From assembly GCF_001761325.1 (NCBI RefSeq), contig NZ_CP017478.1:2377501-2441500 (forward strand): DNA of 64,000 nt. Reading direction: 5' to 3'. This document shows positions 38,926 through 62,247 of this stretch, piece by piece (position 1 is the stretch's first letter; every line of letters begins with the position of its first letter). The notes below the pieces were generated by a model. The model was given only the letters and a program-made list of their open reading frames with translations, was not told the DNA's origin and searched no databases. This DNA comes from Urechidicola croceus (GTDB lineage Bacteria; Bacteroidota; Bacteroidia; Flavobacteriales; Flavobacteriaceae). The translations under genes were made by a program, and so were the position numbers.

Positions 38926-39645
38926 ATGGTTGTTTCTACAAAGGCAGTTGTTTTAAGCGCTCTTAAATATGGTGACACTAGTTTAATCGTAAAATGTTAT
39001 ACTGAAAATGAAGGTGCAAAATCATATATGTTGCGAGGTGTTTTATCTTCTAAAAAAGGGAAGTTAAAAACTTCATATTTTCAACCCACCACTCAATTAA
39101 AAATTATAGCCAATCATAATAATAAAGGTACGCTTAATAGCATTAAGGAAGTTGAAATTATAAATCATTATCACACTATTTTTATAGATATTACAAAGCA
39201 GTCTATTGCTTTATTTATTTCTGAAATATTAAATTACTCACTCCAAGAAGAAGAAAAAAATGAAGGCTTATATGAGTTTTTAGAAACAGCTTTTATTTGG
39301 TTGGATACACATAATAAAATTTCTAATTTTCATCTACTTTTTTTATTAAACTTAACTAAATACCTTGGTTTTTATCCAGAAACGACAAATTTTCATTACA
39401 ATTATTTTGATTTAGACGAAGGCTCTTTTAAAACTTTTGCACCAAAATACAATTTCATAACTGGAGATAATTTAATCAGTTTTAAAAAATTGTTAGGCAC
39501 GAATTTTGAGGCTTTAAATAGCATTGAATTTAGTGCAAAAATTAGGCAACAAATATTAAAAGATTTAATTCGATATTTTGAATTACATTTGACCGGCTTT
39601 AGAAAGCCAAAATCATTAGATGTTTTAACAGAAATTTTTCGTTAA
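38926..39645 (+). CDS. recO: DNA repair protein RecO
   Basis: RecO anneals single strands and loads RecA with RecR in the RecF pathway. The 239-residue protein begins MVVSTKAVVLSALKYGDTSL, with the typical N-terminal OB-fold (KYGDTSLIVKCYTENEGA). The C-terminal helical domain contains LTKYLGFYPE, as in other RecO proteins; the zinc-finger cysteines of some RecO proteins are absent. It starts on the base after the porZ stop codon, so the two are translated together. Confidence 0.92.
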   Translation: MVVSTKAVVLSALKYGDTSLIVKCYTENEGAKSYMLRGVLSSKKGKLKTSYFQPTTQLKIIANHNNKGTLNSIKEVEIINHYHTIFIDITKQSIALFISEILNYSLQEEEKNEGLYEFLETAFIWLDTHNKISNFHLLFLLNLTKYLGFYPETTNFHYNYFDLDEGSFKTFAPKYNFITGDNLISFKKLLGTNFEALNSIEFSAKIRQQILKDLIRYFELHLTGFRKPKSLDVLTEIFR

Positions 39646-42299: not shown

Positions 42300-45200
42300 A
42301 TGAAAAAGAAATTCCCCACAGGTATAGTCATGGCTATTGCTATGCTATTTATACTTTTCTATTCTTCGAAAAGTAGTGCACAAACAACAATTATTTATGA
42401 TGATTTTGAATCCGGATATGGAAACTGGAATGATGGTGGAGACGACTGTACAAGAACAAATAGTTCTAGTTCACCCTATAATCCATTGTATTCTATTAAT
42501 TTAGATAATAATGATGGTCAAAATTCATCAATGACTACTAATGATTTAGATATTTCTCTATTCGAGCAAGTTGATTTAACTTTTGATTTTCATACAATAG
42601 CGATTAATACCAATGAAGATTTTTGGGTACGTTATTCAAATAATGGAGGAAGCACCTGGACAACAGTTAAAAGGTTTATAAGAAATTCAGGTACGGATAC
42701 TGCTTCAGTAAAATATTTTGATAATGGTTTGGACTATACAGAAACGATAAGTATAGATTCTGGATCTTACACTTTCTCTACAAATTCTCAATTTAGAATT
42801 CAGTGCGATGCTGGAGATGATAATGATGATGTATATATTAATGAAGTAACTGTTACAGGTCACCCACCTGCTCAAAGGGAAATTATTGTAACTAGTGGAT
42901 CAAGTTCTATTAATGATGGAGATATTACAACATCAACATTAAATAACACTAATTTTGGGAGTTACGATGTTAATTCAGGATCTAAACTTAAAACATATAC
43001 AATTACAAATATTGGCGAAACCGACCTTACAATTGGAGCGATTTCAATTACAGGAGACACAGGTGAATTTACAATAGACACATTACCTAGTGATTTATTA
43101 CTGTCTTATAATGAATCAACAACATTTGTTCTTTCGTTTGACCCAACTTCAAGTACTAGTTTTGATGCGATAGTAAGTATAATAAATAATGATTCAGATG
43201 AAAACCCTTTTGATTTTGTAATTACAGGAGAAGGAGCTCAAATTTATCCTGATACAGATGGAGATGGTATTTCGGATAATTTGGATTACGATGATGATAA
43301 TGATGGTTTATTAGATTCTTACGAACAAACAGTTTGTTTAGCATCTTCTGGATCTAATACTGTTGAAACAAATTTTTTAACTGAAACTTTTGAATCTGGA
43401 ACTTTAAGAATTGAAATAAATGGAACACATGAAGGTGTTACTTCTACTTATATTCATGAGGGTGGTCCAGGAGCTTTAAATGATGGAGATTACACGGTTC
43501 ATCATATGATAACCACAGGTGTTAATGGTGAGCCTGTTGGAGAATCAGATGCAATTGCTAATTGGGCATGGTATGCATGGGCACCAATTGAAGATCATAC
43601 AAGTGGAGATACCAATGGTAGAATGGCAATTTTTAATGCAGATAATGACCCGGGAATTTTTTATGAATACCAAATCACAGGAATAATGCCAGGAGTTCCA
43701 ACAACATATAGTTTTTGGGCAATAAATATAGATAATGACGATTCTGTTTTTAATTCTGGTGAACTTGATAATACTGGACACAGAATATTACCTAATATAA
43801 CCGTTAATTTTTTAACAACAGATTTAAGTACGGTTATTTCAACTTTTGATACAGGAGATATTACTCGTTGCGATGGAGATATCTTTATAGAAGCCGACCA
43901 TACCGATACTGATGTAACAAATCATCCTGATTATGGTGTTTATAATCAATGTTTAACTTCAGTTTGGAAAGAATTTACATCAACATTTACATCAACTGAT
44001 AGCGAATTTGTTGTACAGTTTGTCAACAATAAAGAAGGGGGGTTTGGAAATGATCTTGCGATTGATGATATAACGATTTCACAAACTCTTTGTGATTTAG
44101 ATTCTGATGGTGTAGGTGATATCTTAGACTTAGACAATGATGATGATGGAATTCCAAATATAATTGAAGCACGATTTATGGTAAATCCAGATCCAGATGG
44201 TGATGCAACAACTGAAAACGCTTCAGGAGTTATAGTAGATATTAATAATAATGGTGTTCACGATTCGTATGAAGGTTTTACACCAATTGATTCTGATGGA
44301 GATTTAATAGATGATTATTTAGACTTAGATTCCGATAATGATGGAATTTTTGATGCCGTAGAATACGAAACATTTGGTGATATAGATATAGATGGCGATG
44401 GAAATGGAGACGGTATTGATACAGATTCTGGTATACCTAACGACGATCAAGATGGTGACGGTTTATTAGGAAATTCTGATGGAAATGATACTGACGCAGA
44501 TGATGATGATCATGGAAGTGGAAGTTTAGGATATCCAACACCTGTAGATAGCGATGGTGATGGTGCCCCTGACTATATAGATGTATTTAACGATATAACT
44601 GGAGTTTATGATATTGATAGAACAATTTACAGTGAATTAATTGCCAATACCAACGGAATTATTGATGGAACTTCTGATATAGATTCTGATGGAATTTTAG
44701 ATGCATTTGATACCGATAACACATTATATGGTTCTCCTCGTGATTTAGATGCTAGTTATTCACTATTTTTTGATGGGAGAAATGATTATGTAGACGATAC
44801 ATTTTCGTTCAACGGATTGTCAGAAGCAACAATGATGTGTTGGATAAAAGTAGATCCAAATTTTGAAGGAAGAGGAATATTTTTAGGACAAGAAATTTTT
44901 GAATTAGAAATGCAATATTATAGTTACAATCAACTTGCAATTTTAGCTAAAATAAACAATTCAGTATCTTTAAATTATACCCCAAATTCTGGAAGTATTA
45001 TTGACCCTACTTTTGTAAAAGATATGTGGATTCATGTTGGGTTGGTATACGATGGAGGTGACACAAGCCTTAAATTATATATTAATGGAGTTGAAAAAGC
45101 ATCCTCTACAAGTGTTTCAGGAAGTACAATAGTTTCTAGTCCATTTAATTTTACAATAGGTACTGATGCTGATATTTATGGTAGAGAAGCATTGAGCCCA

Positions 45201-47453
45201 GAAGGACGAAAACCTTACTTTCATGGAGAAATTGATGAAGTTCGAGTATTTGATAAAGCATTGACTAAAGATGAATTACAAAAAATGGTTCATCAAGAAT
45301 TGGATGAACTAAATAGTTTTAATCGAGGAAAAATAGTTTCACTTGATATAAGCCCAGGAATTGGTTCAAACCTTAAGAGGTATTTTAAAATGGATGGATA
45401 TAAAAATGATATCCTAGATGATAAAACAACACCTGCAATTGACATTTTAACAGGAGCAAAAATATATAATGTCAAAGACATTAAATTTCAAACAGCACCA
45501 GTACCTTATATAACCATTCAAGATGGAGATTGGACAGATGTTGATACTTGGGAATTTGGAGATGTTTGGGATATTACATTAAAAGATGAATATAATGTAG
45601 GAGATGATTATGGTTGCGCTATTGTTCAAGTTAGAGATAGTCTGGTTACATCATCTTCAAGAAGTTCATTAGGTTTAATAGTCGATTCAGGAGCCAAATT
45701 CCATATACAAAAAGGGAGCGATTTAGGTCAAGGATTATTTAATAATTGGTATTTAAAATTAGACGGAACACTAGATTTAGAAGACGAATCTCAACTAATT
45801 CAAACATCCAAAAGTATTTTTGATGAAACAAGTGTAGGTCAATTAGAGAGAGACCAGCAAGGTACAGCTAATAGTTATGCTTATAATTATTGGAGTTCTC
45901 CAGTTCATACTAGTATAGATATAGATGGAGATCAATCCTATAAAATCACTGATATATTATTTGATGGGACTGATGCTTCATTGCCAATTGCATTAGATTT
46001 CGATCCAGCAACTACTTTATCTGCTGCAGACCCATATTATGCAGATGGAGCAGAATCGACACCGAGAAAGATTGCAACCTACTGGTTTTGGAAGTTTGTA
46101 AATAGTGGAAATGATTATGCTAACTGGAATTGGGTTGGAGGAAATAACACTTTAAAAGCATCAGAAGGATATACTATGAAAGGGGTTTCGGGTGCAAATG
46201 CAATAACATCAGATCAAAACTATGTATTTATTGGAAAACCAAATAATGCACCCGAAGATGAAGGAGGAGAAATAGTACATACAGAATTTATAACAACAAC
46301 TACTCCAGAAGGCTGGACGTATAACTCATTAACAGGAAACCCATTTCCAAGCGCTTTAGATGCTGATCAATTTATTAATGATAATAATTTAAGTACAACT
46401 GGAACAATTTATTTTTGGGAGCATTGGGGTGGAGGAAATCATAATTGGGCCGATTATCAAGCCGGTTATTCAACATATACAATAGCAACTGGAGTTCCAG
46501 CGGTAGCACATACTGATGGTTCAGGACTAGGAGCAGGAACAAAAGCACCTGGCCGTTACATACCAGTAGGACAAGCATTTTATATTATATCTAGTGAGGA
46601 TGGTGGCGAAGTAGTTTTTAATAATAGCCAACGAGTGTTTAAAACAGAATTAGATGACGATTCAAATCCAGATCATTCTATTTTTACCAGAGAGATTAAA
46701 AATGAAAAAGAAACTGAAAAAACCAAGGAATTGACAAGTAGAGATGGTGAAGAAACAGAAAATGAAAAACAAGTGATAAGATTAGGTTTTGACTCACCTA
46801 TGAATTATCACCGTCAAATAGCAGTAGCATTTTTAGAAGGTGCAACGGATAGTATAGATCCAGGCTATGATGGCTTGGCGGGAGATTTTTTAACTAATGA
46901 TGCATTTTTTATTCAAGAAGATAAATATTTTGTCATTCAAGCTTTTGGTGAATTTGATGAAGAAAGAGAGATTCCAATTTCTATATTTATTGATGAAAAC
47001 AATAATGGAGGATTAGAAAGAATGATGGTTGACGGTTTAATGAATGTTCCAGAAACGACTAATATATACATCAAAGACAATACAACAGGAGAAACACATG
47101 ATATAAAGAATGGTGTTTATGAAGTATACCTTGATACTGGTGAGCATAAAGATAGATTTTCATTAGTATTTAAATCTCAAATTTTATCAGTTGAAGAATC
47201 GGGCATTTTAGAGGATTATATGACAATATTTATGAATAATGTTCAAAAGACAATTGACATTGCTAAAACATCAGAAATAGAAATAAAAACAGCAATATTG
47301 TACAATTATTTAGGGCAAGAAATTCAAGTTTGGAATAAAAACTTAAATATAAACCAGATAGCACTACCTTTAAATGAGGTTAGTTCGGGCGCCTATATTT
47401 TAAAATTAACCGCTGATAATAAAACTATTAGTAAGAAATTAATAATTCAATAA
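42300..47453 (+). CDS. Giant T9SS-sorted surface protein 1 (TSP3, LamG)
   Basis: A secreted protein of 1717 residues with a signal peptide ending at SSAQ (about residue 28). Order: a beta-rich domain (about 28-190) containing YDDFESGYGNWNDGGDD; a choice-of-anchor-D Ig-like domain (about 198-310); calcium-binding thrombospondin type 3 stretches (DTDGDGISDNLDYDDDNDG near 318, again near 598-790); and a LamG-like lectin domain from residue ~816 (FFDGRNDYVDD). The conserved tail shared with its two neighbours includes LERDQQGTANS and TGNPFPSALDAD. It ends in a T9SS type A sorting domain of ~75 residues. Export through the type IX system to the cell surface is expected; ligand unknown. Confidence 0.85.
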   Translation: MKKKFPTGIVMAIAMLFILFYSSKSSAQTTIIYDDFESGYGNWNDGGDDCTRTNSSSSPYNPLYSINLDNNDGQNSSMTTNDLDISLFEQVDLTFDFHTIAINTNEDFWVRYSNNGGSTWTTVKRFIRNSGTDTASVKYFDNGLDYTETISIDSGSYTFSTNSQFRIQCDAGDDNDDVYINEVTVTGHPPAQREIIVTSGSSSINDGDITTSTLNNTNFGSYDVNSGSKLKTYTITNIGETDLTIGAISITGDTGEFTIDTLPSDLLLSYNESTTFVLSFDPTSSTSFDAIVSIINNDSDENPFDFVITGEGAQIYPDTDGDGISDNLDYDDDNDGLLDSYEQTVCLASSGSNTVETNFLTETFESGTLRIEINGTHEGVTSTYIHEGGPGALNDGDYTVHHMITTGVNGEPVGESDAIANWAWYAWAPIEDHTSGDTNGRMAIFNADNDPGIFYEYQITGIMPGVPTTYSFWAINIDNDDSVFNSGELDNTGHRILPNITVNFLTTDLSTVISTFDTGDITRCDGDIFIEADHTDTDVTNHPDYGVYNQCLTSVWKEFTSTFTSTDSEFVVQFVNNKEGGFGNDLAIDDITISQTLCDLDSDGVGDILDLDNDDDGIPNIIEARFMVNPDPDGDATTENASGVIVDINNNGVHDSYEGFTPIDSDGDLIDDYLDLDSDNDGIFDAVEYETFGDIDIDGDGNGDGIDTDSGIPNDDQDGDGLLGNSDGNDTDADDDDHGSGSLGYPTPVDSDGDGAPDYIDVFNDITGVYDIDRTIYSELIANTNGIIDGTSDIDSDGILDAFDTDNTLYGSPRDLDASYSLFFDGRNDYVDDTFSFNGLSEATMMCWIKVDPNFEGRGIFLGQEIFELEMQYYSYNQLAILAKINNSVSLNYTPNSGSIIDPTFVKDMWIHVGLVYDGGDTSLKLYINGVEKASSTSVSGSTIVSSPFNFTIGTDADIYGREALSPEGRKPYFHGEIDEVRVFDKALTKDELQKMVHQELDELNSFNRGKIVSLDISPGIGSNLKRYFKMDGYKNDILDDKTTPAIDILTGAKIYNVKDIKFQTAPVPYITIQDGDWTDVDTWEFGDVWDITLKDEYNVGDDYGCAIVQVRDSLVTSSSRSSLGLIVDSGAKFHIQKGSDLGQGLFNNWYLKLDGTLDLEDESQLIQTSKSIFDETSVGQLERDQQGTANSYAYNYWSSPVHTSIDIDGDQSYKITDILFDGTDASLPIALDFDPATTLSAADPYYADGAESTPRKIATYWFWKFVNSGNDYANWNWVGGNNTLKASEGYTMKGVSGANAITSDQNYVFIGKPNNAPEDEGGEIVHTEFITTTTPEGWTYNSLTGNPFPSALDADQFINDNNLSTTGTIYFWEHWGGGNHNWADYQAGYSTYTIATGVPAVAHTDGSGLGAGTKAPGRYIPVGQAFYIISSEDGGEVVFNNSQRVFKTELDDDSNPDHSIFTREIKNEKETEKTKELTSRDGEETENEKQVIRLGFDSPMNYHRQIAVAFLEGATDSIDPGYDGLAGDFLTNDAFFIQEDKYFVIQAFGEFDEEREIPISIFIDENNNGGLERMMVDGLMNVPETTNIYIKDNTTGETHDIKNGVYEVYLDTGEHKDRFSLVFKSQILSVEESGILEDYMTIFMNNVQKTIDIAKTSEIEIKTAILYNYLGQEIQVWNKNLNINQIALPLNEVSSGAYILKLTADNKTISKKLIIQ
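44749..47453 (+). repeat. Shared C-terminal module, copy 1
   Basis: About 900 codons (LamG to sorting domain) homologous to 51485-54134 and 59591-62247. Identity is highest around ADPYYADGAESTPRKIATYW, TYWFWKFVNSGNDYANW, NYVFIGKPNNAPE, YFWEHWGG and PETTNIYIKDN. It is a protein-level duplication, long diverged at the DNA third position. Confidence 0.85.
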
Positions 47454-47494
47454 TCCTATGTAGTCTAAATCATTAAAATAATTGCCAATTTATT

Positions 47495-47524
47495 AAAAAA
47501 CCTCCGCTTTTGGAGGTTTTTTAA
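47495..47524 (+). terminator. Terminator after giant protein 1
   Basis: AAAAAACCTCC (47495-47505) pairs with GGAGGTTTTTT (47512-47522), a perfect 11-bp stem with a 6-base loop. Confidence 0.9.
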
Positions 47525-47768
47525 TATTTATAAGTAAAATAGAGCTGTGAAATTCCATTTATGCTTAAAATCAACCACTTGTTGTTTTTTTTATTACACT
47601 CGTTTTTTTCATCAAATAACATTGAACTAAAAAAGTACTTTTGATCCACCTAAAGGTAAAATTTAAGTTAATATTTTAAATCCCCACATTAAATATTATA
47701 CAATTTTTTGTGACTTTTTAAATATTAAAGTGTCAAAATAAAGGAGTTACTTATAAAAAATTGTATAT
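47525..47768. other. Intergenic region before giant protein 2
   Basis: No gene is visible. TACTTTTG at 47636-47643 matches the -7 box TAnnTTTG exactly, but lies 125 bases before the ATG and has no clear -33 TTG; it is the best promoter candidate. If used, the leader would be about 120 bases long and AT-rich. Confidence 0.4.
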
Positions 47769-50700
47769 ATGACAACAAAATTACATTCTACAGGAATAAA
47801 ATTAGTCTTATTTGTATTTATTACTTTATTTACTATTACAGGCTTTTCGCAAATTGAAATTGCGAGTCAACGTTTTCATAATGGTAGCCAAGACTATCAA
47901 TACACAATTGCCGATAAAGAAGAGGTTTGGGCTCCAATGAGCCAAACTATTAACACACATGTTGGTACAGATGATTGGGATTATACGGCAACAACATCAA
48001 ATGGTATTATTCGAATTGTAAACTCTGAAATTACTGCACCAGCTTCAGACTTATATTGCTTAGAAATCAAAAACTATTGGGATGATAATCCAGAAATTGA
48101 GTTTAGCGAAATAGATATCTCCAATTTTAATAATGTTACTTTTTCAATAGCTTACCAATCAATAGGTGAACCAGACAATAATGAAGATTTAATTTTAGAC
48201 TACATGTATTTTAGCGGAGGTACATGGGTAGCACCAGCCTCAGTTAATTTGGTAGATGCAAGTAATGATTTAGTTACAGATATTGTATTATTTGGAACTT
48301 CGTTATCTAACCCAAATCCGTATGTGGTTTCAATACCAGATTCTGCAACACGATTTAGAGCTACTGTAAGAGCAAGTTTTATTAATGGTACAAACGGTAA
48401 TGATAACTATTATTTAGATGATGTGATTCTTACAGGTGATGCGTTAACCATTCCTCCAGTTGCAAATTGTGCTTCAGATTTTTCAATTGAATTAGATAGT
48501 AATGGTTTAGCCTCGATTACTGCTAGTGATATTGATAATGGATCATCAGTTAGCGTTGGAACAATGACTTTATCAATAGATAAAACAGATTTTACTTGTG
48601 CAGATTTAGGCGAAAATATTATAACATTAACAGTAGATGATGGAATACAATCTACCACATGTACTACAACAGTAACAGTTAATGGTTATACTGGGTCAAT
48701 GGTAACGCCAACAATTCCAGACACGACAACATATTGTTCGTATACTGCTCCAACGCCAGAAGATATCTCTTATCAATGTCATATAATTACACCAACTACA
48801 ACAGATGAAACAGTATTTACAACTCCAGGAAATTATTCAATTACTTGGACTTATTATGATTCAGTAAGTGGCACTTCCGAAACCTCAATTCAAAATGTAA
48901 CCCTAAATAATTTAACCGCACCAACTGGAATTATAGCTTCAAATATTGGTGCAGATTCAGCAACTATTTCTTGGGACGAACAAGTTGGAGTTGAATCGTA
49001 TGAAATTCAATATAAGAAAAATGATTTAACAAACTGGGATTCAGTTACATCTACATTAAATACTGTTGAACTTACTTTATTAGATCAATTGACAGAGTAT
49101 GATGTAAGAGTTGCTGCAATATGCGATGGAACTTCAACTTTTTCAGGAGTTAATAATTTTACTACAGATGGACATGATTATTGTGTTCCAGAAGTTACAA
49201 ACTTTAGCAATAATGATTATATAAGGAGAGTTCGATTTGGAACTTTAACACCAAGAATTGATAATTATAGTACTTACACTAATGGCTATGATGATTATAC
49301 CGAAACAGATATTGCTAATGTTTATAAAAATGAAACATATACAATTACAATAGATGCGTATAGTCGATATAATCAAAATATGGGTTTTGCTGTATGGATT
49401 GATTTTAATGGAGACGGTGATTTTGAAGATGTAGGTGAAGATGTGTGGCGTTATGAAGATTATGATAATGCCACAACAGCAAATACAGTTACTGGAAGTA
49501 TTAGTATCCCTACCTATGCAGTTAATGGGCAAACCGTAATGAGAGTAGCAACAAGAAGATATTGGTATCCAGACGACCCTTGTGATGGTGATTTTGACGG
49601 ACAAAGAGGTGAGTTTGAAGATTATACACTTGATTTACAAATTCGTCCAGATGCGCCACAAGAAATAGATATAACAGGTAATGGTAATATTATTGTTGAT
49701 GATGCAGGTGTTGCAGATATTGAAGAGGGAAATAATACAGATTTTGGACCATACGACGTATATGAAACACCATTAATAAAAACATATAGAATAACTAATA
49801 ACGGTGCAGACCCTTTAACTTTAACAGGATCACCTTTAGTTGAATTTATAAACAATACAGGAGATTTTACAATTATTCAACAACCAAATATTTCTGTTTT
49901 AGCAATTGGAGAATCAACAACATTTAAAGTTGCATTTGACCCAACTACTGAAGGTATTAAAAGTGCAACACTTCAAATTTTAAATGATGATATAGATGGT
50001 TCAGATACAGAAGACAATTATACTTTTTACATTCAAGGAGATGCAGTAAAAACTTTTCCCGATACTGATGGTGATGGTGTTCCTGATAATATTGATGGAG
50101 ATGATGATAACGATGGAATTTTAGATTCAGCTGAAGATACAACCTGTAAAACGTATTCTGTGGCTTCACAAGTTGAATCAATTTTCTTAAATGAAACTTT
50201 CGGTTCAGGTTATGATAGAGTTGAAGTAGATGAATATAATGATACTGCAGTTACAACCTATTGCTATGAAGACGGAACAGGTTCATGTAATAATGGAGAT
50301 GTAAATTTAAACGATGGTTCTTATACAGTATATCACAATTCAACTTCTGATATTGCCAGTTGGTCTGATAGTCATTGGTATCAAGGTTTAGATCATACCG
50401 ATGATGCTATTGATGGAGCAGAACCTGGTAGAATGTTGATAATTAACGCAAGTTACGATCCAGGTATTTTTTATAGCGCTACAATTAATGGAGTTACACC
50501 TGGTGTTGAGGTTACCTATGGTTTTTCAGTTATTAATTTAGATAGAACAGATGCACCTTGTATTGATGGTTGCCCAGGAGGCGCAACTTGGGATGACAAT
50601 CCAAGAAAAAGACCAGAAGTATTAATTGCTGTTTATGATCAAAACGGAAACTCTTTAATTCCAACAACAACTTCTGGTTTAATAGAACCAACAGATGTTT

Positions 50701-53700: not shown

Positions 53701-54134
53701 TTATGATAGATGGTTTAAAAAATATTCCAGAAACTACAAACATCTATATAAAAGATAATTTTTCAGGCGAAACACATGATATTAAAAACAATGTATTTGA
53801 AGTTAATTTAGAATCAGGCGAACATAAAGATAGATTTTCATTAGTATTTAAACAACAAGAGGCTTTATCAGTAGTTCAAGATACATTACTAGAATCTCAA
53901 TTAAGTATTGTTATGAATAATAGTAATAGTACAATTGATATTAAAAAACCTATTGAAGTTGAAATTGAAAGCGTAATTTTATATAATTCTTTAGGTCAAA
54001 CTATACAAATGTGGAATAAAAACTTCAATCAAAACGAAATTAATTTACAATTGAACAGTACAAGTACTGGAGCGTATATTGTAAAGATTAATACAGATAA
54101 CAATACACTTTCTAAAAAAATCATTATTGAATAG
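47769..54134 (+). CDS. Giant T9SS-sorted surface protein 2 (FN3, GEVED, TSP3, LamG)
   Basis: 2121 residues with a signal peptide ending near residue 28 (FTITGFSQ). Order: an unknown beta domain (about 28-230); a HYR-like Ig domain (about 232-310); a fibronectin type III domain (about 383-464, TAPTGIIASNIGADSATISW); a GEVED domain (about 468-625, FAVWIDFNGDGDFEDVGED); a choice-of-anchor-D domain (about 630-760); TSP3 calcium repeats near 763 and 1027-1230; LamG from ~1240; then the shared tail and a T9SS type A sorting domain. It should be surface-exposed and is likely an adhesin or polysaccharide-binding protein, but no enzyme domain is visible. Terminators lie before and after it. Confidence 0.85.
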   Translation: MTTKLHSTGIKLVLFVFITLFTITGFSQIEIASQRFHNGSQDYQYTIADKEEVWAPMSQTINTHVGTDDWDYTATTSNGIIRIVNSEITAPASDLYCLEIKNYWDDNPEIEFSEIDISNFNNVTFSIAYQSIGEPDNNEDLILDYMYFSGGTWVAPASVNLVDASNDLVTDIVLFGTSLSNPNPYVVSIPDSATRFRATVRASFINGTNGNDNYYLDDVILTGDALTIPPVANCASDFSIELDSNGLASITASDIDNGSSVSVGTMTLSIDKTDFTCADLGENIITLTVDDGIQSTTCTTTVTVNGYTGSMVTPTIPDTTTYCSYTAPTPEDISYQCHIITPTTTDETVFTTPGNYSITWTYYDSVSGTSETSIQNVTLNNLTAPTGIIASNIGADSATISWDEQVGVESYEIQYKKNDLTNWDSVTSTLNTVELTLLDQLTEYDVRVAAICDGTSTFSGVNNFTTDGHDYCVPEVTNFSNNDYIRRVRFGTLTPRIDNYSTYTNGYDDYTETDIANVYKNETYTITIDAYSRYNQNMGFAVWIDFNGDGDFEDVGEDVWRYEDYDNATTANTVTGSISIPTYAVNGQTVMRVATRRYWYPDDPCDGDFDGQRGEFEDYTLDLQIRPDAPQEIDITGNGNIIVDDAGVADIEEGNNTDFGPYDVYETPLIKTYRITNNGADPLTLTGSPLVEFINNTGDFTIIQQPNISVLAIGESTTFKVAFDPTTEGIKSATLQILNDDIDGSDTEDNYTFYIQGDAVKTFPDTDGDGVPDNIDGDDDNDGILDSAEDTTCKTYSVASQVESIFLNETFGSGYDRVEVDEYNDTAVTTYCYEDGTGSCNNGDVNLNDGSYTVYHNSTSDIASWSDSHWYQGLDHTDDAIDGAEPGRMLIINASYDPGIFYSATINGVTPGVEVTYGFSVINLDRTDAPCIDGCPGGATWDDNPRKRPEVLIAVYDQNGNSLIPTTTSGLIEPTDVSNPNGDWYEVSTTFTTTSSQFTVQLINSQDGGAGNDLAIDDIYVKQLLCDMDGDGVADTVDLDNDDDGIPNVVELNLPDSDQDGTLFGDGWLDTNNNGVHDLYEGGAVLLDSDNDGVPNYIDLDSDNDGIFDTVEYDGNGDIDIDGDGLGDGNDGASETNDDTLDGDGILAIVDTNDNDVDGSDHGTNGYELPLDSDGDGIPNYLDPYNDIIRIYDIDNTIYGDIIPNFNGVISGSTDADLDGILDVFDTDNTVFGSPRDLNDSYTLFFDGRNDYVEDANVLVSGDATLMAFIRSNGDNDTNTDRIIVGQDNFYLKVNDSDNTVSIVLNGSTVFTSTTTIVDGIWTHIAASTDSEETILYINGEIEGDSETRGISNDTSRFTIGRLAGRDSNYFNGEIDEVRLFQSVLTEEEIQKMVYQELGNDDDSSFNFGKTVPVEISSNLNATLLRYFKMDGYKGDILDDKTTGAIDFGTGAKLYNIKDIYFQTAPLPYETVGDLSAETDWYDTSIWKYGSVWDITSKIEDNLDTEYNHSIVKINGTDQIKSDVHQSMLGLIVEPNAKLTMDGDTDAGTGSGVFNTWYLKLDGTLDLQGESQLIQTSTSMFDDSSVGQIERDQQGTANSFAYNYWSSPVYNSIDDDGDKAYNLMDVLFDGSDVSTPIALDFDPALTLSAADPYYADGAESTPRKIATYWFWKFVNSGNDYANWTWAGGDNKLKASEGFSMKGVSGANEITADQNYVFIGKPNNAPENLGEEIIHTTFAGGTTDEGWTYNSLTGNPFPSALDADKFINDNLATTTGTIYFWEHWGGNNHNWRDYQAGYSTYTIATGVPAVAHTDGSGIGAGTKAPGRYIPVGQAFYVIGSDAGGDVVFKNSQRVFKVELNDETNDDHSVFTRGVQTENKSEENTGRQESGSGEKQIIRLGFDSPYGYHRQIAVAFLDGATDAFDPGYDAEAGDYLTNDAFFTLDDKYLVIQAFVEFDEDREIPISIFIDEEHNGGLERIMIDGLKNIPETTNIYIKDNFSGETHDIKNNVFEVNLESGEHKDRFSLVFKQQEALSVVQDTLLESQLSIVMNNSNSTIDIKKPIEVEIESVILYNSLGQTIQMWNKNFNQNEINLQLNSTSTGAYIVKINTDNNTLSKKIIIE
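51485..54134 (+). repeat. Shared C-terminal module, copy 2
   Basis: About 880 codons homologous to copies 1 and 3. Conserved blocks in the same order include FFDGRNDYVED, GEIDEVRLF, FKMDGYKGDILDDKTTGAID, WYLKLDGTLDL, IIRLGFDSPYGYHRQIAVAF and the sorting domain. Confidence 0.85.
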
Positions 54135-54173
54135 TGAGAATTTAATAAATTTTCAAAGAAAATATTTATATTT

Positions 54174-54203
54174 AAAGACCGCTTATTTAAGCGGTCTTTT
54201 TTA
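54174..54203 (+). terminator. Terminator after giant protein 2
   Basis: AAAGACCGCTT (54174-54184) pairs with AAGCGGTCTTT (54189-54199), a perfect 11-bp stem with a 4-base loop, and a T-run follows. Confidence 0.92.
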
Positions 54204-54594
54204 TTGATATACAATAGTTTGAGTTTAATTAATTGAAAAGTTTACTTTTTGTTAATCTATTGTATTAAGCATTTGAACGAAACTATAAGCCCATTCAACT
54301 AATAACAGTAGAAAACAGTAAAAATTCAATATATTTTTGCTATAAAAATAGTATTTGACATAAAAATTAAAGGAATAGTATAGTTTGAAGTGAATTAAGA
54401 AAAAAATATTTTTTTATTCAAAAAAAAAATCTATTTTAGCCCAACCTACTAAACCTCAAATATATGCTACCAAAATTCTTACCTCAACACAGGTTTGATT
54501 ATTTTTTTGCGAATACGAATGTTTTTTTGCTATTTGACTTTAAAGTCAACAGTTTTTATTATTAAAACATTACAATTATTCAAAAAAATACAAT
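54204..54594. other. Long intergenic region before giant protein 3
   Basis: No gene is visible in this 391-base AT-rich gap. TATTTTTG at 54332-54339 is an exact -7 box match, but it lies about 255 bases before the ATG. A perfect 16-bp palindrome is described separately. No second terminator was seen. Confidence 0.5.
54534..54549. promoter_or_regulatory. 16-bp perfect palindrome upstream of giant protein 3
   Basis: TTGACTTTAAAGTCAA lies 45 bases before the ATG at 54595. Its symmetry and position would suit an operator for a dimeric regulator, though it also could be chance in AT-rich DNA. Confidence 0.45.
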
Positions 54595-57500
54595 ATGTAC
54601 CCTACAAAAATATTTATAAAAATAGCAATTGTGATGCTGTTTTTTTCTGTTTACAATGTTCAAGCGCAATATTGCACACCAAATAATATTGGTGCAAATG
54701 GCACTTTTTATATTTCAAATGTGTCAATTGGGACAATAAACAACCCTTCCAATTCTTCTGCAACTAATTATCAATATTATACTACACCAACAACAGACTT
54801 AACGATTGGAGATACATATTCTATGGATATTGACTTTGCAACCGCTGCTTATAATATGTCAGGAATGGTCGTTTGGATAGATTTCAATGGAGATGGAGAT
54901 TTTAGTGATATAGGTGAGCAAATATATTCTGGAACTTCATCTCCTACCATAGCAACAGGCACAATTTCATTTAATGTAACGATACCAGCTACAGCAATAT
55001 TAGGTATAACTAGAATGAGGCTGTCTATAAGACAAGGTGGAGTGGCGAGTTCTTCTTGTTCAAATGATTATCAAGCTGGAGAATTTGAAGATTATAATGT
55101 TAACATAGTAAGTGGAGGCCCACCAAACATACCTCCTATAGCTTCAGATGATATTTTTAATATTGATGAAGACACTACTCTTAATGGGCAAAATATAATA
55201 ACAGGAACCAATCCATCAACATCAGATACTGATGCGGATTTTGATGTATTATCTATTGTTAGTTTTGAAATTTTTGGCGACGCTACTACATATATAGCAA
55301 GTGCTTCACCAATAACAATTACAGGTGTTGGAGACTTAACTATTGATACCGATGGGAGTATAGTTTTTATTCCAGTTCTAGATTATAATGGTTCAGTTCC
55401 AGAAATTACATATACCTTGAACGATGGAGAAGATATAGATATAGCAACAGTAAACATTACTGTTGACCCAGTTAATGACGCACCTATTGCATCTGATGAT
55501 ACAGCAACAGTGAGTCAAGATACAGATTTGGTAATCCCGATTGCTGGATTCTTAATTGATAACACAACAGACGCTGACGGTGACACCTTAATATTATCAC
55601 TTTCAAGTCCATCAAATGGTTTAGTAAGTTCAGACGGTACAAATATAACTTTTACTCCAAACTCAGGCTACGTTGGGACAGCATCATTTACATATATAGT
55701 AAATGACGGAACAATAGATTCAAACATCGCAACAGTTACTATTGATGTAACAATTACGAATGATCCTCCAGTTATTTCTGGAGCTCCACTAACTTTATCT
55801 GCTTTTGAAGACGGAAGTTCAGTCACAGGAACATTAAGTTTTTCAGACCCAGATGCTGGTAATACACACACTTATTCTGTTTCTTCGATGGGAGTCGGTG
55901 AAGGAAGTGTAAGTGTCAACGCTTCAGGTGTATATGAATACAATCCTGAAGCAGATTTTCAATCTTTAGGCCAAGGAATATCAACAAATGTTACTTTTGA
56001 TATCACCGTTACAGATAACGTTGGAGCTTCAGATACCGAAACGGTAACTGTAACTGTAACTGGAGTTAATGATGCGCCAAATGCTGTGGACGATACTACT
56101 CTAACGAGTGTAAATACACCAATTGATCTTAGTACTGTAGATATTGTAACCCCTAATGATATTGATATAGATACAGGTGATACTTTGACAATAAGTGCAG
56201 TTAGTAACCCAATAAACGGAACAGTTAATTTAAGTGGAGGAATTGTAACATTTACTCCCGATACAGATTTTTCAGGTACTGCAACTTTTGATTATACAAT
56301 TAGTGATGGTAATTTAACAGATACAGCAACAGTGAGTATTAATGTTTCTTTGACTTACTGCGAACCAACAGGTACAAATTCTAATGGATCACATTATATT
56401 ACAAATGTGACATTGACTGATACTTCTGTACCTGTAGATTTAATTAACTATTCATCGGTACCAGCTGATAATGGAGGGTATATTGATAATTCACCATTTG
56501 TACCAGTTCCAAATGTGGATAAATACGGAACATTTACATTAGATGTTTCTTTTGCTGGAAATGATAGTGGTTTAGGAGTTTATTTAGATGCAAATCAAGA
56601 TGGTGTTTTTGCAGATAGTGAAATGATAATTGAAGAAATAACAACAACAAGCACAAGTCCTTTTTCTGGGTATGCATTTGTAATACCAGCAAATGCATTA
56701 TTAGGAACAACAGCAATTAGAGTTGGAACAATGCAATATTATTCTGCAAATGTTCCATGTGGTGCTTTGCCAAATCCAGGTGAATATGAAGATTACGTTA
56801 TAAATATCACTGAACCTGCTGAACCTGTAGCAAATGACGACACAGTGTCAATAGGAATTAATACAACTACTGGAGTTGATAATCAGTTTGATGTCTCAAT
56901 AAACGATACTCTTGGTACAAATCATGGAAGTGATGGTGATGATTATTCAATTTCAAGTGACCCTTTAAATACTGCTAATGGAGGATCTGTGACAGAAATA
57001 TCTGATGGTATTTTTGAATATATTCCTGCTACAGATTATGTTGGAAGTGATAGTTTTACATATACTTTATGTGATGATGCTGGACATTGTGATACAGCAA
57101 TAGTTAATATTGTTGTAAATCTTGGATCATGTGTACCATCGAGTAATTCTCAAGGAACACATTTTATTACTAATGTCAATATGATTAGAAATAGTGATGC
57201 TTCAACTACAATTGATAATACTTCTTTAGATGATGGAGGTTATGGAGATTATACAAGTTTAGGGGCTTTTGATCTATACAAAGGAGAAGATTATGATTTT
57301 ACTCTTGAAGTTTCTCAAGATATGGCTACTCAAAACCGGTCAGGATGGACGGTATATATTGACTTTAATCAAGATGGTGAATTTACATTTCCTGATGAAG
57401 CAATTTTTGATTCCGATGGTGAAGAAACTACATTATCAAATGTTGACAGAACTTTTGATACTGCAACAGTAAACATTCCAACATATGCATTAACAGGATT

Positions 57501-60500
57501 GACAGTAATGCGTGTTGGAGCACGACAATATCTTTCTTCACAAAATGCCTGCGGTGATCCAGATGGAAATCCTGAAGAGTTTGAAGATTATTTAGTTAAT
57601 TTAATAGTTGACCCTTCGAGCCCTCCATTAATGGGAATTACATCCAATAATTTTTTAGTTGCAAGTGGCGCTCCATATACATATGATTTTAATAATAATA
57701 CAAATTTTGGGTTATATGATATTAATAGTGGAGGACTACAACGAACCTATACAATTACCAACAATGGTGGTATGCCCTTAATATTGGGAGCAACACCAGT
57801 AGTTATTGATGATTTAACTCATTTTAATATTGTAAGTCAGCCTGCTGGGGGTACCACACTGAACACTGATGAAACAGCTGATTTTATTATTGAATTTGAT
57901 CCAGATGCAATAGGAACTTGGAATATTCAAATAGATGTTTCAAGTAATGATACAACCTCACCATATAATTTTGGAGTTCAAGGAGAAGGCCAACAAACAT
58001 TTCGTGATACTGATGGAGATGGAATTCCAAATAATGTTGATTTAGATGATGATAATGATGGTATGCTTGATTCAGTTGAAGATAATAACTGCTTAATTGC
58101 CCCAAATGCATCAACGTCTGAAACAATTTTTTTAAACGAAACATTTGGTTCAGGTACTAATAGAATAGAATTAACTTCAATTGATGCAGGAACAAATGTT
58201 TCAACAGCTACAACAACCTATTGTTTTGAAGATGGTTCTGGATCATGTATACCTGCTGATGGATATTCTCCACCTTCTTTAGGTGATGGCGAATATACAA
58301 TCCACCACCAAGTTACAAACGGTGATGGTGTAACAGATGCAAATAACGATATAGATATTTCAATTTGGGCAGAAGATTACTGGTATGCTGGTGAAGACCA
58401 TACTCCAGGTGATACTAATGGTCGTATGGCAATATTTAATGCAACATTAGAACCTGGTGTTTTTTATAATGCTACAATTTACGGTGTATCTGCAGGAGTA
58501 GATGTAACTTATGGTTTTTCAGCAATAAACTTAGATAGAGCAGATGCACCATGTTTAGATGGAGGAGGAGTAGGATTAGATGAAAATGGAAACCCATGTC
58601 CTAATGATCCAAGAGAAAGACCAGAAGTAGTTATTAGAGTTTATGATCCTAATGGTAATTTAATTGTAAATACAGATGGAAATACTGAGGCATCTTCAGG
58701 AATACTTAATCCAGGAACTGATTGGACTGACGTTAGTGCAACTTTTAATACTGGTGGTTTTACTCAGTTTACAGTTGAGTTAAGTAATGCTCAATATGGA
58801 GGTTTGGGTAATGATATTGCTTTAGATGATATTTATGTAAAACAATATTTATGTGATTTAGACGGAGATGGTGTTGGTGATTCTGTAGATTTAGATAATG
58901 ATGATGATGGAATTCCTAATGTAGTTGAGTTAGGCTTACCAGATTTTGATTTAGATGCTACAGTGAATAATGATACCGGTGTAAATGCTTGGGTTGATGC
59001 AAATAATAACGGTGTGCATGATAATTATGATCCGCAAGATATTAATGGCTTAGACTATGGAGACTTAGGTTTTTCTGGTGCGTTAGGAACTCAAATTGAT
59101 TTATCAAACCCAATCTTAGATACTGATGGAGATGGAGTTTTAGATTATCTTGATCTTGATTCTGATAATGATGGAATTTTTGACGCAATTGAATATGATG
59201 ATAGAGGAGATATTGATATAGATGGAGATGGTAATGGTGATGGTTCTGACGCAGAAACTGATGATATTACAGACGCTTTTGATGGAGATGGAATTTTAGG
59301 TGCTGCTGATGGTAATGATGATGATGCAGATGGAAATGATCACGGTACTCTAGGAATGCCTTATCCTACACCTTTAGATACGGATGGCGATGGAATACCT
59401 AATTTTAAAGAAATAGATAGTGATAATGATGGTATTTATGATATTCATGAATCGGGAGCAACAAATATATATACCGGTTTAGATGCCAATAATGATGGAT
59501 TATTAGATGATACTGTTGATACAGATGGCGATGGTATTCTAGATATATTTGATACTGACAATACACTTTTTGGTTCACCAAGAAACATAGAAGATAGTTG
59601 TTCACTCTTTTTTGATGGAAGAAATGATTATGTAGAAGACACTAATGTTATTGTATCAGGAGACTCAACAATAATGTCATTTATAAAATCAGAAGGATCT
59701 AACGATACTAATACAAATAGAGTTGTAGTTGGACAAGACCAATTTTATTTACAAGTAAATGATTCAGATAATACAGTAAGCGCAGTATTAAACGGAACTG
59801 TAATTTTAACTTCTACTACAGCAGTTGTTGATGGAATTTGGACACATATAGCAGTTACAACTAATTCCGCAGAAACAGCACTTTATATTAATGGTACCTT
59901 AGAAGGTACTACAGGTTCTGGAGGAATTACAAGCGATAGTTCTAATTTTACAATAGGTAGATTAGCAGATTCAGATTTAAACTATTTTCACGGAGAAATA
60001 GAAGAGGTTCGATTATTCAATGAGTCTTTAACTGAAGATCAAGTAAAGAAAATGGTGTATCAAGAACTTGGAGATGCTACAGATACAAGTTTTAACGAAG
60101 GAAAAATTATACCTATTGAAATTTCGGCAACATTTGATACATCTTTGGTTAGATATTTTAAAATGGATGGCTTTAAAAACGACATTTTAGACGATAAAAA
60201 AACAGCATCAGTAGATGTTGTAACAGGTGCAAAGTTATACAACATAAAAGATATTTATTTCCAAACAGCACCTTTACCATATGAGACAGTAGGAGATTTA
60301 GCTTCACCAACCGATTGGTATGATGCAACGGTATGGAAACATGAAAGTGTATGGGACATTACAAGTAAATTAGAAGATAATGCTGATACAGTCTATCATC
60401 ATTCAATTATTCGAATCAATGCTACAGACACAATTACAACTGATGCACATCAAAGTATGTTGGGCTTATTAATTGAACCAACATCTAAATTGATAGTAAA

Positions 60501-62247
60501 CGGAGATACATCTGCAGGAACAGGTTTCGGAGTTTTCAACACTTGGTATTTAAAAATAGATGGAACTTTAGATTTAGAAGGTGAATCTCAATTAATTCAA
60601 ACTTCAACGAGTCTATTTGAAGAAGCAAGTTTAGGACAATTAGAAAGAGATCAACAAGGTACTGCAAATAGTTTTGCATATAATTATTGGAGTTCTCCAG
60701 TTCATACTGCTATTGATGTTGACGGAGACCAATCATTTAATATTATGGACATTTTGTTTGATGGAAGTGATTTTACTGCTCCAATTCCATTAGACTTCGA
60801 TTCAGCCTTGACCTTATCAGCAGCGGATCCATATTATGCTGATGGGGCTGAAACAACTCCTAGAAAAATTGCAACATATTGGTTTTGGAAATTTGTAAAT
60901 AGCGGAAATGATTATGCAAATTGGCGTTGGGTAGGAGGTAATAGTACTTTAAAAGTAACTGAAGGTTACAGTATGAAGGGAGTTTCAGGAGAAAATACAA
61001 TACCTGAAGATCAAAACTATGTTTTTATAGGAAAGCCAAATAATGCACCTGAAGATGAAGGTGGCGAAATAGTGCACACAACTTTTGTTCCTGGAACAAC
61101 AGTAGATGGTTATACATATAATACACTTACAGGTAATCCATTTCCAAGTGCTTTAGATGCCAATCAATTTATTAACGACAATTTTGCAACTACAACAGCT
61201 ACATTATATTTCTGGGAACATTGGGGAGGAACAAATCATAATTGGAGAGATTATAGAGCAGGTTACTCAACCAGAAACTTAACAACTGGAGTGCCAGCCG
61301 CAGCGCATCCTAATGGTTCTGGAGGTATAGAAAATGGGAGTAAAACACCTGGTCAATACATTCCAGTTGGACAGGCATTTTATGTAATTTCAAATGGAGC
61401 TGGAGGAGATGTAGTCTTTAACAATAGCCAGCGAATATTTAAGAAAGAGTTAGATAACATAAGTGATTTTGATCATTCTATTTTTACACGTACTACTGAA
61501 AACTCAAAAGAAACTAAAGAAGTTTCTGAGGCACAAGAGGAATCAAGAACTATTGAAAAACAAATTATTCGTTTAGGTTTTGAATCACCTTATGGATATC
61601 ACCGTCAAATAGCGTTAGGGTTTATTGAAGGTGCAACTGATAGTATTGACAGAGGATACGATGCTTTGGCAGGAGATTATTTTACCAATGATTCCTTTTT
61701 TGTAGTAGATGATCAATATTTATTGATACAAGCTTTTGGAGAATTTGATGAAAATAGAGAAATACCTATAGTTATAATTATTGATGAAAATCACGATGGT
61801 GGATTGCAAAAAATAATGGTAGATGGACTAATGAATGTTCCAGAAACTACAAATATTTATATTAAAGATAATACAACAGGTGAAACATTTGATATCAAGA
61901 GTCAAACTTATGAAGTGAATTTATCTACTGGAACACATAAAGAAAGATTTTCTATAGTGTTTAAGTCGCAACAAGCATTGTCAGTTGAAACTACTGAGTT
62001 TTTGGATGATAATATGACAGTTTTTATGAATAATAGACAAAAAACTATAAATATTAGAAAAACACCAGAAATTGAAATTGAAAATGTCACTTTATATAAT
62101 TATTTAGGGCAAGCAATTCAAGTGTGGAGTAAGAATTTAGATACTGATCAATTGATTTTACCATTAAATAATATGGCCAGTGGTACATATATATTAAAAA
62201 TTAAAACAGACAATAATACTATAAGTGAAAAATTATTAATAGAATAA
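54595..62247 (+). CDS. Giant T9SS-sorted surface protein 3 (GEVED, cadherin-like, TSP3, LamG)
   Basis: 2550 residues with a signal peptide ending at VQAQ (about residue 25). Order: GEVED domain (about 26-172, VVWIDFNGDGDFSDIGEQ); four cadherin-like/VCBS tandem repeats (about 178-585), with NDAPIASDD and VNDAPNAVDD linkers; a second GEVED (about 588-740); a short cadherin-like repeat (to ~840); a third GEVED (about 845-1010); choice-of-anchor-D (about 1015-1132); TSP3 repeats (about 1138 and 1420-1650); LamG from ~1667; and the shared tail with T9SS sorting domain. It is the largest member of the trio. The next gene is 32 bases away with no terminator, so both are likely transcribed together. 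Confidence 0.85.
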   Translation: MYPTKIFIKIAIVMLFFSVYNVQAQYCTPNNIGANGTFYISNVSIGTINNPSNSSATNYQYYTTPTTDLTIGDTYSMDIDFATAAYNMSGMVVWIDFNGDGDFSDIGEQIYSGTSSPTIATGTISFNVTIPATAILGITRMRLSIRQGGVASSSCSNDYQAGEFEDYNVNIVSGGPPNIPPIASDDIFNIDEDTTLNGQNIITGTNPSTSDTDADFDVLSIVSFEIFGDATTYIASASPITITGVGDLTIDTDGSIVFIPVLDYNGSVPEITYTLNDGEDIDIATVNITVDPVNDAPIASDDTATVSQDTDLVIPIAGFLIDNTTDADGDTLILSLSSPSNGLVSSDGTNITFTPNSGYVGTASFTYIVNDGTIDSNIATVTIDVTITNDPPVISGAPLTLSAFEDGSSVTGTLSFSDPDAGNTHTYSVSSMGVGEGSVSVNASGVYEYNPEADFQSLGQGISTNVTFDITVTDNVGASDTETVTVTVTGVNDAPNAVDDTTLTSVNTPIDLSTVDIVTPNDIDIDTGDTLTISAVSNPINGTVNLSGGIVTFTPDTDFSGTATFDYTISDGNLTDTATVSINVSLTYCEPTGTNSNGSHYITNVTLTDTSVPVDLINYSSVPADNGGYIDNSPFVPVPNVDKYGTFTLDVSFAGNDSGLGVYLDANQDGVFADSEMIIEEITTTSTSPFSGYAFVIPANALLGTTAIRVGTMQYYSANVPCGALPNPGEYEDYVINITEPAEPVANDDTVSIGINTTTGVDNQFDVSINDTLGTNHGSDGDDYSISSDPLNTANGGSVTEISDGIFEYIPATDYVGSDSFTYTLCDDAGHCDTAIVNIVVNLGSCVPSSNSQGTHFITNVNMIRNSDASTTIDNTSLDDGGYGDYTSLGAFDLYKGEDYDFTLEVSQDMATQNRSGWTVYIDFNQDGEFTFPDEAIFDSDGEETTLSNVDRTFDTATVNIPTYALTGLTVMRVGARQYLSSQNACGDPDGNPEEFEDYLVNLIVDPSSPPLMGITSNNFLVASGAPYTYDFNNNTNFGLYDINSGGLQRTYTITNNGGMPLILGATPVVIDDLTHFNIVSQPAGGTTLNTDETADFIIEFDPDAIGTWNIQIDVSSNDTTSPYNFGVQGEGQQTFRDTDGDGIPNNVDLDDDNDGMLDSVEDNNCLIAPNASTSETIFLNETFGSGTNRIELTSIDAGTNVSTATTTYCFEDGSGSCIPADGYSPPSLGDGEYTIHHQVTNGDGVTDANNDIDISIWAEDYWYAGEDHTPGDTNGRMAIFNATLEPGVFYNATIYGVSAGVDVTYGFSAINLDRADAPCLDGGGVGLDENGNPCPNDPRERPEVVIRVYDPNGNLIVNTDGNTEASSGILNPGTDWTDVSATFNTGGFTQFTVELSNAQYGGLGNDIALDDIYVKQYLCDLDGDGVGDSVDLDNDDDGIPNVVELGLPDFDLDATVNNDTGVNAWVDANNNGVHDNYDPQDINGLDYGDLGFSGALGTQIDLSNPILDTDGDGVLDYLDLDSDNDGIFDAIEYDDRGDIDIDGDGNGDGSDAETDDITDAFDGDGILGAADGNDDDADGNDHGTLGMPYPTPLDTDGDGIPNFKEIDSDNDGIYDIHESGATNIYTGLDANNDGLLDDTVDTDGDGILDIFDTDNTLFGSPRNIEDSCSLFFDGRNDYVEDTNVIVSGDSTIMSFIKSEGSNDTNTNRVVVGQDQFYLQVNDSDNTVSAVLNGTVILTSTTAVVDGIWTHIAVTTNSAETALYINGTLEGTTGSGGITSDSSNFTIGRLADSDLNYFHGEIEEVRLFNESLTEDQVKKMVYQELGDATDTSFNEGKIIPIEISATFDTSLVRYFKMDGFKNDILDDKKTASVDVVTGAKLYNIKDIYFQTAPLPYETVGDLASPTDWYDATVWKHESVWDITSKLEDNADTVYHHSIIRINATDTITTDAHQSMLGLLIEPTSKLIVNGDTSAGTGFGVFNTWYLKIDGTLDLEGESQLIQTSTSLFEEASLGQLERDQQGTANSFAYNYWSSPVHTAIDVDGDQSFNIMDILFDGSDFTAPIPLDFDSALTLSAADPYYADGAETTPRKIATYWFWKFVNSGNDYANWRWVGGNSTLKVTEGYSMKGVSGENTIPEDQNYVFIGKPNNAPEDEGGEIVHTTFVPGTTVDGYTYNTLTGNPFPSALDANQFINDNFATTTATLYFWEHWGGTNHNWRDYRAGYSTRNLTTGVPAAAHPNGSGGIENGSKTPGQYIPVGQAFYVISNGAGGDVVFNNSQRIFKKELDNISDFDHSIFTRTTENSKETKEVSEAQEESRTIEKQIIRLGFESPYGYHRQIALGFIEGATDSIDRGYDALAGDYFTNDSFFVVDDQYLLIQAFGEFDENREIPIVIIIDENHDGGLQKIMVDGLMNVPETTNIYIKDNTTGETFDIKSQTYEVNLSTGTHKERFSIVFKSQQALSVETTEFLDDNMTVFMNNRQKTINIRKTPEIEIENVTLYNYLGQAIQVWSKNLDTDQLILPLNNMASGTYILKIKTDNNTISEKLLIE
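59591..62247 (+). repeat. Shared C-terminal module, copy 3
   Basis: About 883 codons homologous to the tails of giant proteins 1 and 2, with FFDGRNDYVED, VRLFNESLTEDQVKKMVYQE, ADPYYADGAETTPRKIATYW and LGFESPYGYHRQIALGF, ending ILKIKTDNNTISEKLLIE. Confidence 0.85.

Follow-up and report, generated by a model that had tools for sequence, protein, structure and literature searches.

In the genome of Urechidicola croceus (3.43 Mb, a single contig, NZ_CP017478.1), three giant genes stand in tandem within the stretch of 64,000 nucleotides analysed here (positions 2377501-2441500, hereafter the window). Their products end alike and begin differently, and the locus raises the question whether the two parts of these proteins have one common history and, if not, where and when they were joined. 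The sequence-only reading, made from the letters of this stretch, had described three tandem genes of 1717, 2121 and 2550 codons that share a LamG domain, an unnamed region and a sorting domain; all three open reading frames were confirmed in this study, and the products, herein referred to as P1, P2 and P3, show 62-67% identity over the shared part.

Organization of the array and its genomic setting

The features identified in the window are listed in Table 1. The array continues beyond the window with P4, P5 and P6 in this order. The P4 head, of the PQQ-type sugar (glucose/sorbosone) dehydrogenase type, is fused to FN3/GEVED domains; the protein carries 26 MopE metal-binding motifs, a 129-bp unit being present in 25.2 copies with 94% matches, and ends in a different T9SS tail with sorting domain, and it lies inside the array and outside the shared-tail family. 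P6 (642 aa) is also of the dehydrogenase type. By profile search with the conserved region, five shared-tail copies were identified in the genome: in addition to P1-P3, these are P5 (1673 aa, L009:7811-12832), the fourth copy in the array, located after the non-family gene P4, and P7 (1670 aa, L010:5416-10428), about 190 kb away from the array. The count of three copies in the sequence-only reading is thus correct for the window but not for the genome.

The genes for PorZ, RecO and a TonB-dependent receptor lie directly 5' of the array, and the same arrangement recurs in Kordia and two congeners; in L057, recO and a TonB receptor gene are likewise located near a tail-family array. Two adjacent open reading frames of 445 residues elsewhere in the window (31012-32349 and 32416-33753) are apparent tandem paralogues, for both of which the same L057 frame is the best match. 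A relative of P4, designated P8, was found at L011:1275-8957, about 0.13-0.15 Mb upstream, and other relatives of P4 and P6, again genes of the dehydrogenase type, adjoin tail-family genes in other genera (L072:5221-6948, L076:5232-6944, L078:5332-7071 and L073:12003-14879).

Table 1. Features of the P1-P3 array and its upstream genes (positions within the window)
Feature	Position	Strand	Evidence or remark
porZ, T9SS attachment-complex component	36598..38925	+	NCBIfam NF052228 T9SS_PorZ, E 5.9e-218 over 1-775; Pfam PorZ_N_b_propeller
recO	38926..39645	+	TIGR00613, E 8.5e-24
TonB-dependent receptor	39648..42098	+	Pfam PF00593/PF07715
P1, giant surface protein, 1717 aa: MAM-like head, middle block, LamG, RemA/RemZ-type tail	42300..47453	+	
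P1 head domain, MAM/Reelin-B-like, weak	42390..42869	+	Pfam Reelin_subrepeat-B, 74-183, E 1.3e-4, below cut-off; own HMM with L045
P1 middle block: choice-of-anchor-D, acidic DxDxDG-type repeats, unnamed region, repeats; common to P2, P3, P5	42882..44744	+	
P1 LamG/ConA-like domain	44775..45278	+	PF13385, E 4.5e-19
P1 recombination boundary zone, residues ~1130-1200	45687..45899	+	Segment tests, sliding identity
P1 tail core, residues ~1142-1640	45723..47219	+	Most of the beta-helix-like domain (model, P1 1106-1478) and beta-sandwich (1491-1623)
P1 type A T9SS sorting domain (CTD)	47244..47447	+	PF18962, TIGR04183
P2, giant surface protein, 2121 aa: head HYR-like, FN3 and GEVED	47769..54134	+	
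P2 fn3	48918..49133	+	PF00041, 384-455, E 2.7e-8
P2 GEVED	49386..49631	+	PF20009, 540-621, E 1.1e-15
P2 LamG	51507..51941	+	PF13385, 1247-1391, E 1.2e-22
P2 tail core and CTD, residues ~1549-2120	52413..54128	+	Alignment to P1; RemZ E 4e-14
Terminator-like hairpin and T run directly 3' of P2	54174..54199	+	Weak: 6 found vs 5.2 expected in shuffles
P3, giant surface protein, 2550 aa: head of three GEVED and Big_9/Cadherin-like repeats	54595..62247	+	
P3 LamG	59614..60048	+	PF13385, 1674-1818, E 3.5e-19
P3 tail core and CTD, residues ~1976-2549	60520..62241	+	Alignment; RemA E 1.6e-22, RemZ E 4.8e-18
P4 start (2222 aa, extends beyond the window)	62280..64000, on in L009:780-7448	+	

Domains of the heads and the middle block

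The Pfam search agreed with the sequence-only reading on the presence of GEVED and fn3 in the P2 head, and of three GEVED domains together with five Big_9/Cadherin stretches in the P3 head. The P1 head, hitherto called an unknown beta domain, looks MAM/Reelin-B-like with a match below the Pfam cut-off, and the resemblance is weak when compared with the clear MAM head of P5. The three heads, which had been described as different, are indeed different in kind over the N-terminal ~165-1010 residues, but from the choice-of-anchor-D domain onward (P1 ~195, P2 ~631 and P3 ~1015) all three proteins can be aligned, so that about 1,500 residues are common to P1-P3. In P1, choice-of-anchor-D was detected slightly under the cut-off (NF012200, residues 194-301, E 2.1e-11). 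TSP3 for the acidic DxDxDG-type repeats, HYR and jelly roll are the names that we take to apply to these repeats and domains. The N-termini of P1-P3 are hydrophobic as judged by eye, and the heads may bind ligands, as assumed from the names of their domains.

Sequence and predicted structure of the conserved tail

From LamG to the end, the identity is 65% between P1 and P2 (595/916), 62% between P1 and P3 (572/917) and 67% between P2 and P3 (632/944), and the similarity of P1-P3 is not due to chance because the BLASTP E value is 0.0. Nearly unchanged blocks had been pointed out before, and the block TYWFWKFVNSGNDYANW was found to be identical across P1, P2, P3 and also P7. The sorting domain was detected with both PF18962 (27.3, 31.5 and 30.9 bits for P1, P2 and P3, the cut-off being 27) and TIGR04183 (32.3, 34.9 and 35.6 bits; cut-off, 23). 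This known T9SS type A sorting domain corresponds to the last ~75 residues of the tail, whereas the ~500 residues before it make up a conserved module of their own that has no name; no match to Pfam or NCBIfam was obtained at E <= 0.01 for the part of P1-P3 enclosed by LamG and the sorting domain. Genome G376 encodes a 599-aa protein that represents the tail alone, in which the match to profile positions 148-690 starts at its residue ~32; this stand-alone tail begins at profile position 148, corresponding to P1 1142.

The last beta-sandwich of the tail plus the sorting domain also occurs alone in proteins of 269-276 aa adjoining full members (L059:12491-13312, L090:12506-13327, L102:12589-13395, L115:12524-13351 and L117:12562-13368). 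One congener copy, L046:2-4082 (also L028 and L036), spans two overlapping frames and therefore may be broken or hold a sequencing error.

A structure model of P1 989-1717 was built using a 96-row alignment, from which 25 of the 121 referenced tails were omitted as redundant (mean pLDDT 85, pTM 0.81). The model consists of a long beta-rich part, a beta-sandwich (~P1 1491-1623) and the CTD (~P1 1639-1717). The model CTD (model residues 651-729) superimposes on the CTDs of RemA (8gl6_D; Z 10.4, rmsd 1.7, 75 residues) and RemZ (8gl8_D; Z 10.2, 72 residues), and its predicted fold is the Ig-like one of T9SS type A CTDs, as in RemA and RemZ. Since the Foldseek search with the whole-tail model was swamped by Ig-like matches to the CTD, the core was folded separately (P1 1106-1488, pLDDT 86, pTM 0.87). 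With this core-only model, no Foldseek match was obtained at E <= 0.001; its best structural neighbour was the IcsA autochaperone region (3ml3; rmsd 3.8, 111 residues), with a Z of 6.5 that is less than 8 and below the level at which the tool is trustworthy, and the next weak matches were mostly other beta-helices. The models hint at a beta-helix-like fold of the tail core, for which we claim no newness.

Relation of the tail to RemA, RemZ and other T9SS adhesins

When the profile of 96 tails was compared with PDB chains, two Flavobacterium johnsoniae proteins, RemZ (E 1.2e-61) and RemA (E 2.4e-56), were identified over their last ~400 residues. A five-row profile of the copies from the own genome also matches RemA/RemZ, as do single sequences by phmmer (best E, 2.3e-15 for P1, 4e-14 for P2 and 1.6e-22 for P3). 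Strong homology is confined to P1 ~1280-1717, and the core N-terminal of this matches weakly. The domain search and structure prediction of the region between LamG and CTD, as suggested by the sequence-only reading, have thus yielded RemA/RemZ homology and a model of a beta-helix-like core with a beta-sandwich; the region still has no domain name in the libraries searched, but its namelessness is only partial, as the named proteins RemA and RemZ carry this tail.

Outside the tail, no RemA match was detected for P1-P3 by phmmer, and because they match RemA/RemZ solely in the tail, they were not classed as RemA orthologues. RemA (the mobile surface lectin of F. johnsoniae; PDB 8gl6 chain D) is homologous over a C-terminal stretch of ~380-400 residues to which the type A CTD belongs, and differs in that the heads described here are MAM-like, GEVED, FN3, cadherin and LamG domains. 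RemZ (Fjoh_0803, a RemA homologue; PDB 8gl8/8glm/8gln chain D) is likewise similar in the tail and different in the head. According to PMC10994853, the RemZ structures resolve the CTD only, so that the tail core is without solved structure. In the same paper RemZ is called a type A substrate, whereas for a RemZ homologue at L121:4440-7940 the sorting domain was scored by NCBIfam as 'type C' (NF033708, 60.7 bits).

In the G445 and G403 stretches, a 1166-aa frame matches RemZ over almost its full length (E 2.2e-218), and the tail profile was matched by seven complete open frames and two cut at the stretch edge, mostly in tandem and with differing heads. The heads of the five frames scanned include a glycine-rich one with FN3-like domains, a DUF5122 propeller, an Ig-like domain, PKD and LamG.

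The SprB-type gliding adhesins (type B CTD, PorP/SprF shuttle) are also giant, repetitive T9SS surface adhesins, but P1-P3, P5 and P7 bear the type A CTD (TIGR04183) instead of type B (TIGR04131), for which no NCBIfam hit was obtained in P1-P3 at E <= 0.01 or in P5 and P7 at E <= 0.001; elsewhere in the own genome, 14 matches to the type B CTD were identified. Co-occurrence with gliding genes was dropped as a functional clue, being uninformative because GldJ and SprA (TIGR04189), both present in the own genome, are nearly universal in the family genomes (197/199 and 195/199, respectively). SprA in the own genome, together with porZ in the window, does show that the organism possesses a T9SS. 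In titles and abstract openings of the literature, no description of the shared tail was found, and it may have been described earlier, for instance in the 2012 RemA paper.

Distribution of the tail

With about five candidates scored per genome, the tail was identified at E <= 1e-20 in 120 of the 199 sampled genomes of the family, including 108 of the 165 good ones. The phylum sample gave 28 of 296 genomes, 24 belonging to the same family, 2 to the same order and 2 to the same class. Within the genus, 12 of 14 genomes, own included, carry the tail; the congener loci L043-L049 and L057 were equated with genomes G001, G003-G008 and G012 on the grounds that the open-frame lengths are equal and the E-values similar.

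Of the 210 relatives detected on genome contigs, the 80 best were retained, corresponding to 78 loci; together with the window, L009 and L010 these make a set of 125 members in 81 loci, members shorter than 500 profile positions being excluded. Within this set, limited to the best 80 of 210 relatives, LamG lies directly 5' of the conserved region in 122 of the 125 members (the three misses are 5'-truncated), at least two members were found within the fetched DNA in 33 of the 81 loci, and the genomic home is porZ/recO for 11 loci (two of them being the present array), hisS for 50 and neither for 20.

Separate histories of heads and tails

Pairwise comparison indicated different relatives for the two parts. 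The head and middle of P5 share 55% identity over ~790 residues with L072 of another lineage, while the tails share 37%; the P5 tail shows 52-55% identity to the paralogs in its own genome and 41-48% to the tails of congeners, the heads of which are mostly unalignable. Likewise, the P3 head is 49% identical to that of Meridianimaribacter L073, and the tails 37.5%.

The conflict was then examined by AU tests with 25 rows, after removal of 17 of the 42 rows as partial, misaligned or redundant. The middle block groups P2 and P3 with L073 (support 100/99) and rejects the clade {P1, P2, P3, P5} (dlnL 175.5, p-AU 7e-71), whereas the tail gives this clade 100/100 and rejects {P2, P3, L073} (p-AU 1.5e-4); the proteins in these trees are divergent, with P1 and L073 on long branches. 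The exchange between heads and tails, for which the sequence-only reading had proposed separate phylogenies, is in good agreement with these results.

The position of the switch was located by segment tests with 30 rows, using quick trees and some clades that were named after the first trees had been inspected. The clade of the own four copies was rejected by LamG (p-AU 6e-4) and by P1 1000-1130 (p-AU 0.0095), and that of the own four plus five congeners was also rejected by both segments (0.0053 and 0.0071, respectively). From P1 1130 on, a branch separates the own four and the five congeners from all other rows (support 80, 98, 99, 100 and 93); the own four alone are a supported clade in segment 1340-1490, the other four segments after the boundary neither supporting nor rejecting it (p 0.48, 0.58, 0.41 and 0.11). 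Sliding identity profiles cross at one point. The segment tests thus place the switch near P1 1130-1200, at the block WYLKLDGTLDL...GTANSYAYNYWSSP, where the stand-alone tail also starts. On these trees LamG shares the history of the heads rather than that of the tail, as do the ~130 residues after it, and the unit with one shared history appears as the last ~590 residues; the tail of ~880-900 residues, taken as one unit in the sequence-only reading, has to be shortened accordingly.

Clustering of heads by single linkage yielded one chained cluster of 81 of the 104 heads and no useful classes, and the head classes were therefore set by domain HMMs. On the tail tree, again for the best 80 of 210 relatives, the 106 heads require 28 changes of class (mean 53 and minimum 45 in 500 shuffles), whereas a single change of genomic home (porZ/recO or hisS) suffices for 103 members, the 22 members at neither home being left out; the type of tail thus goes with the genomic home. 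Judging from this tree, heads change class often, yet non-randomly, and are largely inherited.

Age of the exchange

Agreement at four-fold sites between the copies is mostly about 30-55% per segment, each with small counts, and synonymous sites look saturated from end to end. Exact DNA matches between copies reach 30 nt at most, and the inverted repeats found are 21-33 nt long and imperfect (72-81%); no switching device was seen among the copies in the search for exact matches and inverted repeats. Recent gene conversion of the tail is disfavoured by the four-fold sites and the 30-nt longest match, and invertible or site-specific switching was rejected in view of the inverted repeats. Among the 77 members of multi-member loci, within the best 80 of 210 relatives, 66 have their best-matching tail outside their own locus and 11 within it, three of these 11 being P1-P3; array positions elsewhere thus appear mostly orthologous. 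The head-tail exchange is real and repeated over long time scales; since the synonymous sites look saturated, the longest match is short, array positions elsewhere are mostly orthologous and no switching device was seen, we consider it to be old.

Discussion

In our judgement, P1-P3 and their relatives are likely to be T9SS-exported multidomain surface proteins built of two exchangeable halves, in which a RemA/RemZ-type tail has been placed under varied heads by old recombination; as the tail groups with RemA and RemZ, P1-P3 would be a modular form of T9SS adhesin of the RemA/RemZ kind. The outer half, including the N-terminal MAM/GEVED/FN3/cadherin-like domains, the middle with choice-of-anchor-D and acidic repeats, and LamG, is probably the binding or spacer part, and the inner half of the last ~590 residues, including the beta-helix-like core, the beta-sandwich and the type A CTD, is probably the part for export and surface placement. 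In this lineage, one tail type would have come under several heads by old recombination at the conserved block that starts the core, either by tail overwriting tail or by movement of heads onto the tail. The proteins would be exported by Sec, pass through the T9SS (SprA/PorV) by means of the type A CTD, and be placed on the surface with the heads outward; for type A CTD substrates, the PorV rule is given in PMC12618676.

A history of simple tandem duplication, in which the exposed heads diverged faster, the tails stayed alike through stronger constraint and the halves were never exchanged, would explain the tandem layout, the tails being more alike than the heads, and the mostly orthologous array positions elsewhere, and it fits the apparent four-fold saturation along the whole length, from which the tail similarity is ascribed to constraint at the protein level. 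Differences in rate, however, cannot place the P5 head and middle nearer to L072 while the P5 tail is nearer to its own paralogs and congeners, and we consider such a history unlikely in view of the strong conflict in the tree tests and the identity profiles crossing at one point. The sequence-only reading had supposed a change of binding specificity by head swapping. A present-day variation cassette of this sort, with heads switched or converted within a population, would agree with the conserved blocks flanking the differing heads, with the tandem layout and with the frequent changes of head class on the tail tree; but the 30-nt limit of exact matches, the saturated four-fold sites, the short and imperfect inverted repeats and the stability of orthologous arrays across genera all speak against it, leaving a quick switch unsupported and the cassette highly improbable.

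As to the role of the core within the two-halves reading, PMC12618676 (section 11) reports that 86% of the fluorescent F. johnsoniae cells (n = 86) showed mobile foci with RemA-HaloTag-CTD and that SprB-HaloTag-CTD(RemA) was static. If RemA with its own upstream part is mobile and SprB with the RemA CTD is static, the mobility determinant of RemA should lie N-terminal of the CTD; with more than the CTD being needed for mobility, the conserved core is the natural candidate for a placement module. The core is the only part of RemA that was found in common to P1-P3, and it has been retained beneath a wide variety of heads. The ~500-residue core might be a surface-placement module deciding the destination of type A adhesins, such as the gliding track, a proposal that we make tentatively and with considerable doubt; if true, any head joined to the core would inherit its placement behaviour. 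The core might alternatively be a folding aid for giant exported proteins, like an autochaperone beta-helix cap, as its best model neighbours, the IcsA autochaperone region followed by other beta-helices, would suggest. IcsA is, however, a type V autotransporter with an export route other than T9SS, its Z stays under 8, Foldseek gave no match at E 0.001, and the core also occurs in the lone 599-aa protein with nothing large to fold; a role only in folding is quite unlikely.

The tail is widespread, lacks a family name in the libraries searched, and has been joined by recombination, at a junction mapped here, to heads that are unrelated. Swap experiments can therefore be designed with a fragment of defined limits, and annotation libraries could gain a model for the family; the tail is also a clear candidate for testing how proteins of the gliding-adhesin type reach their position on the cell surface.
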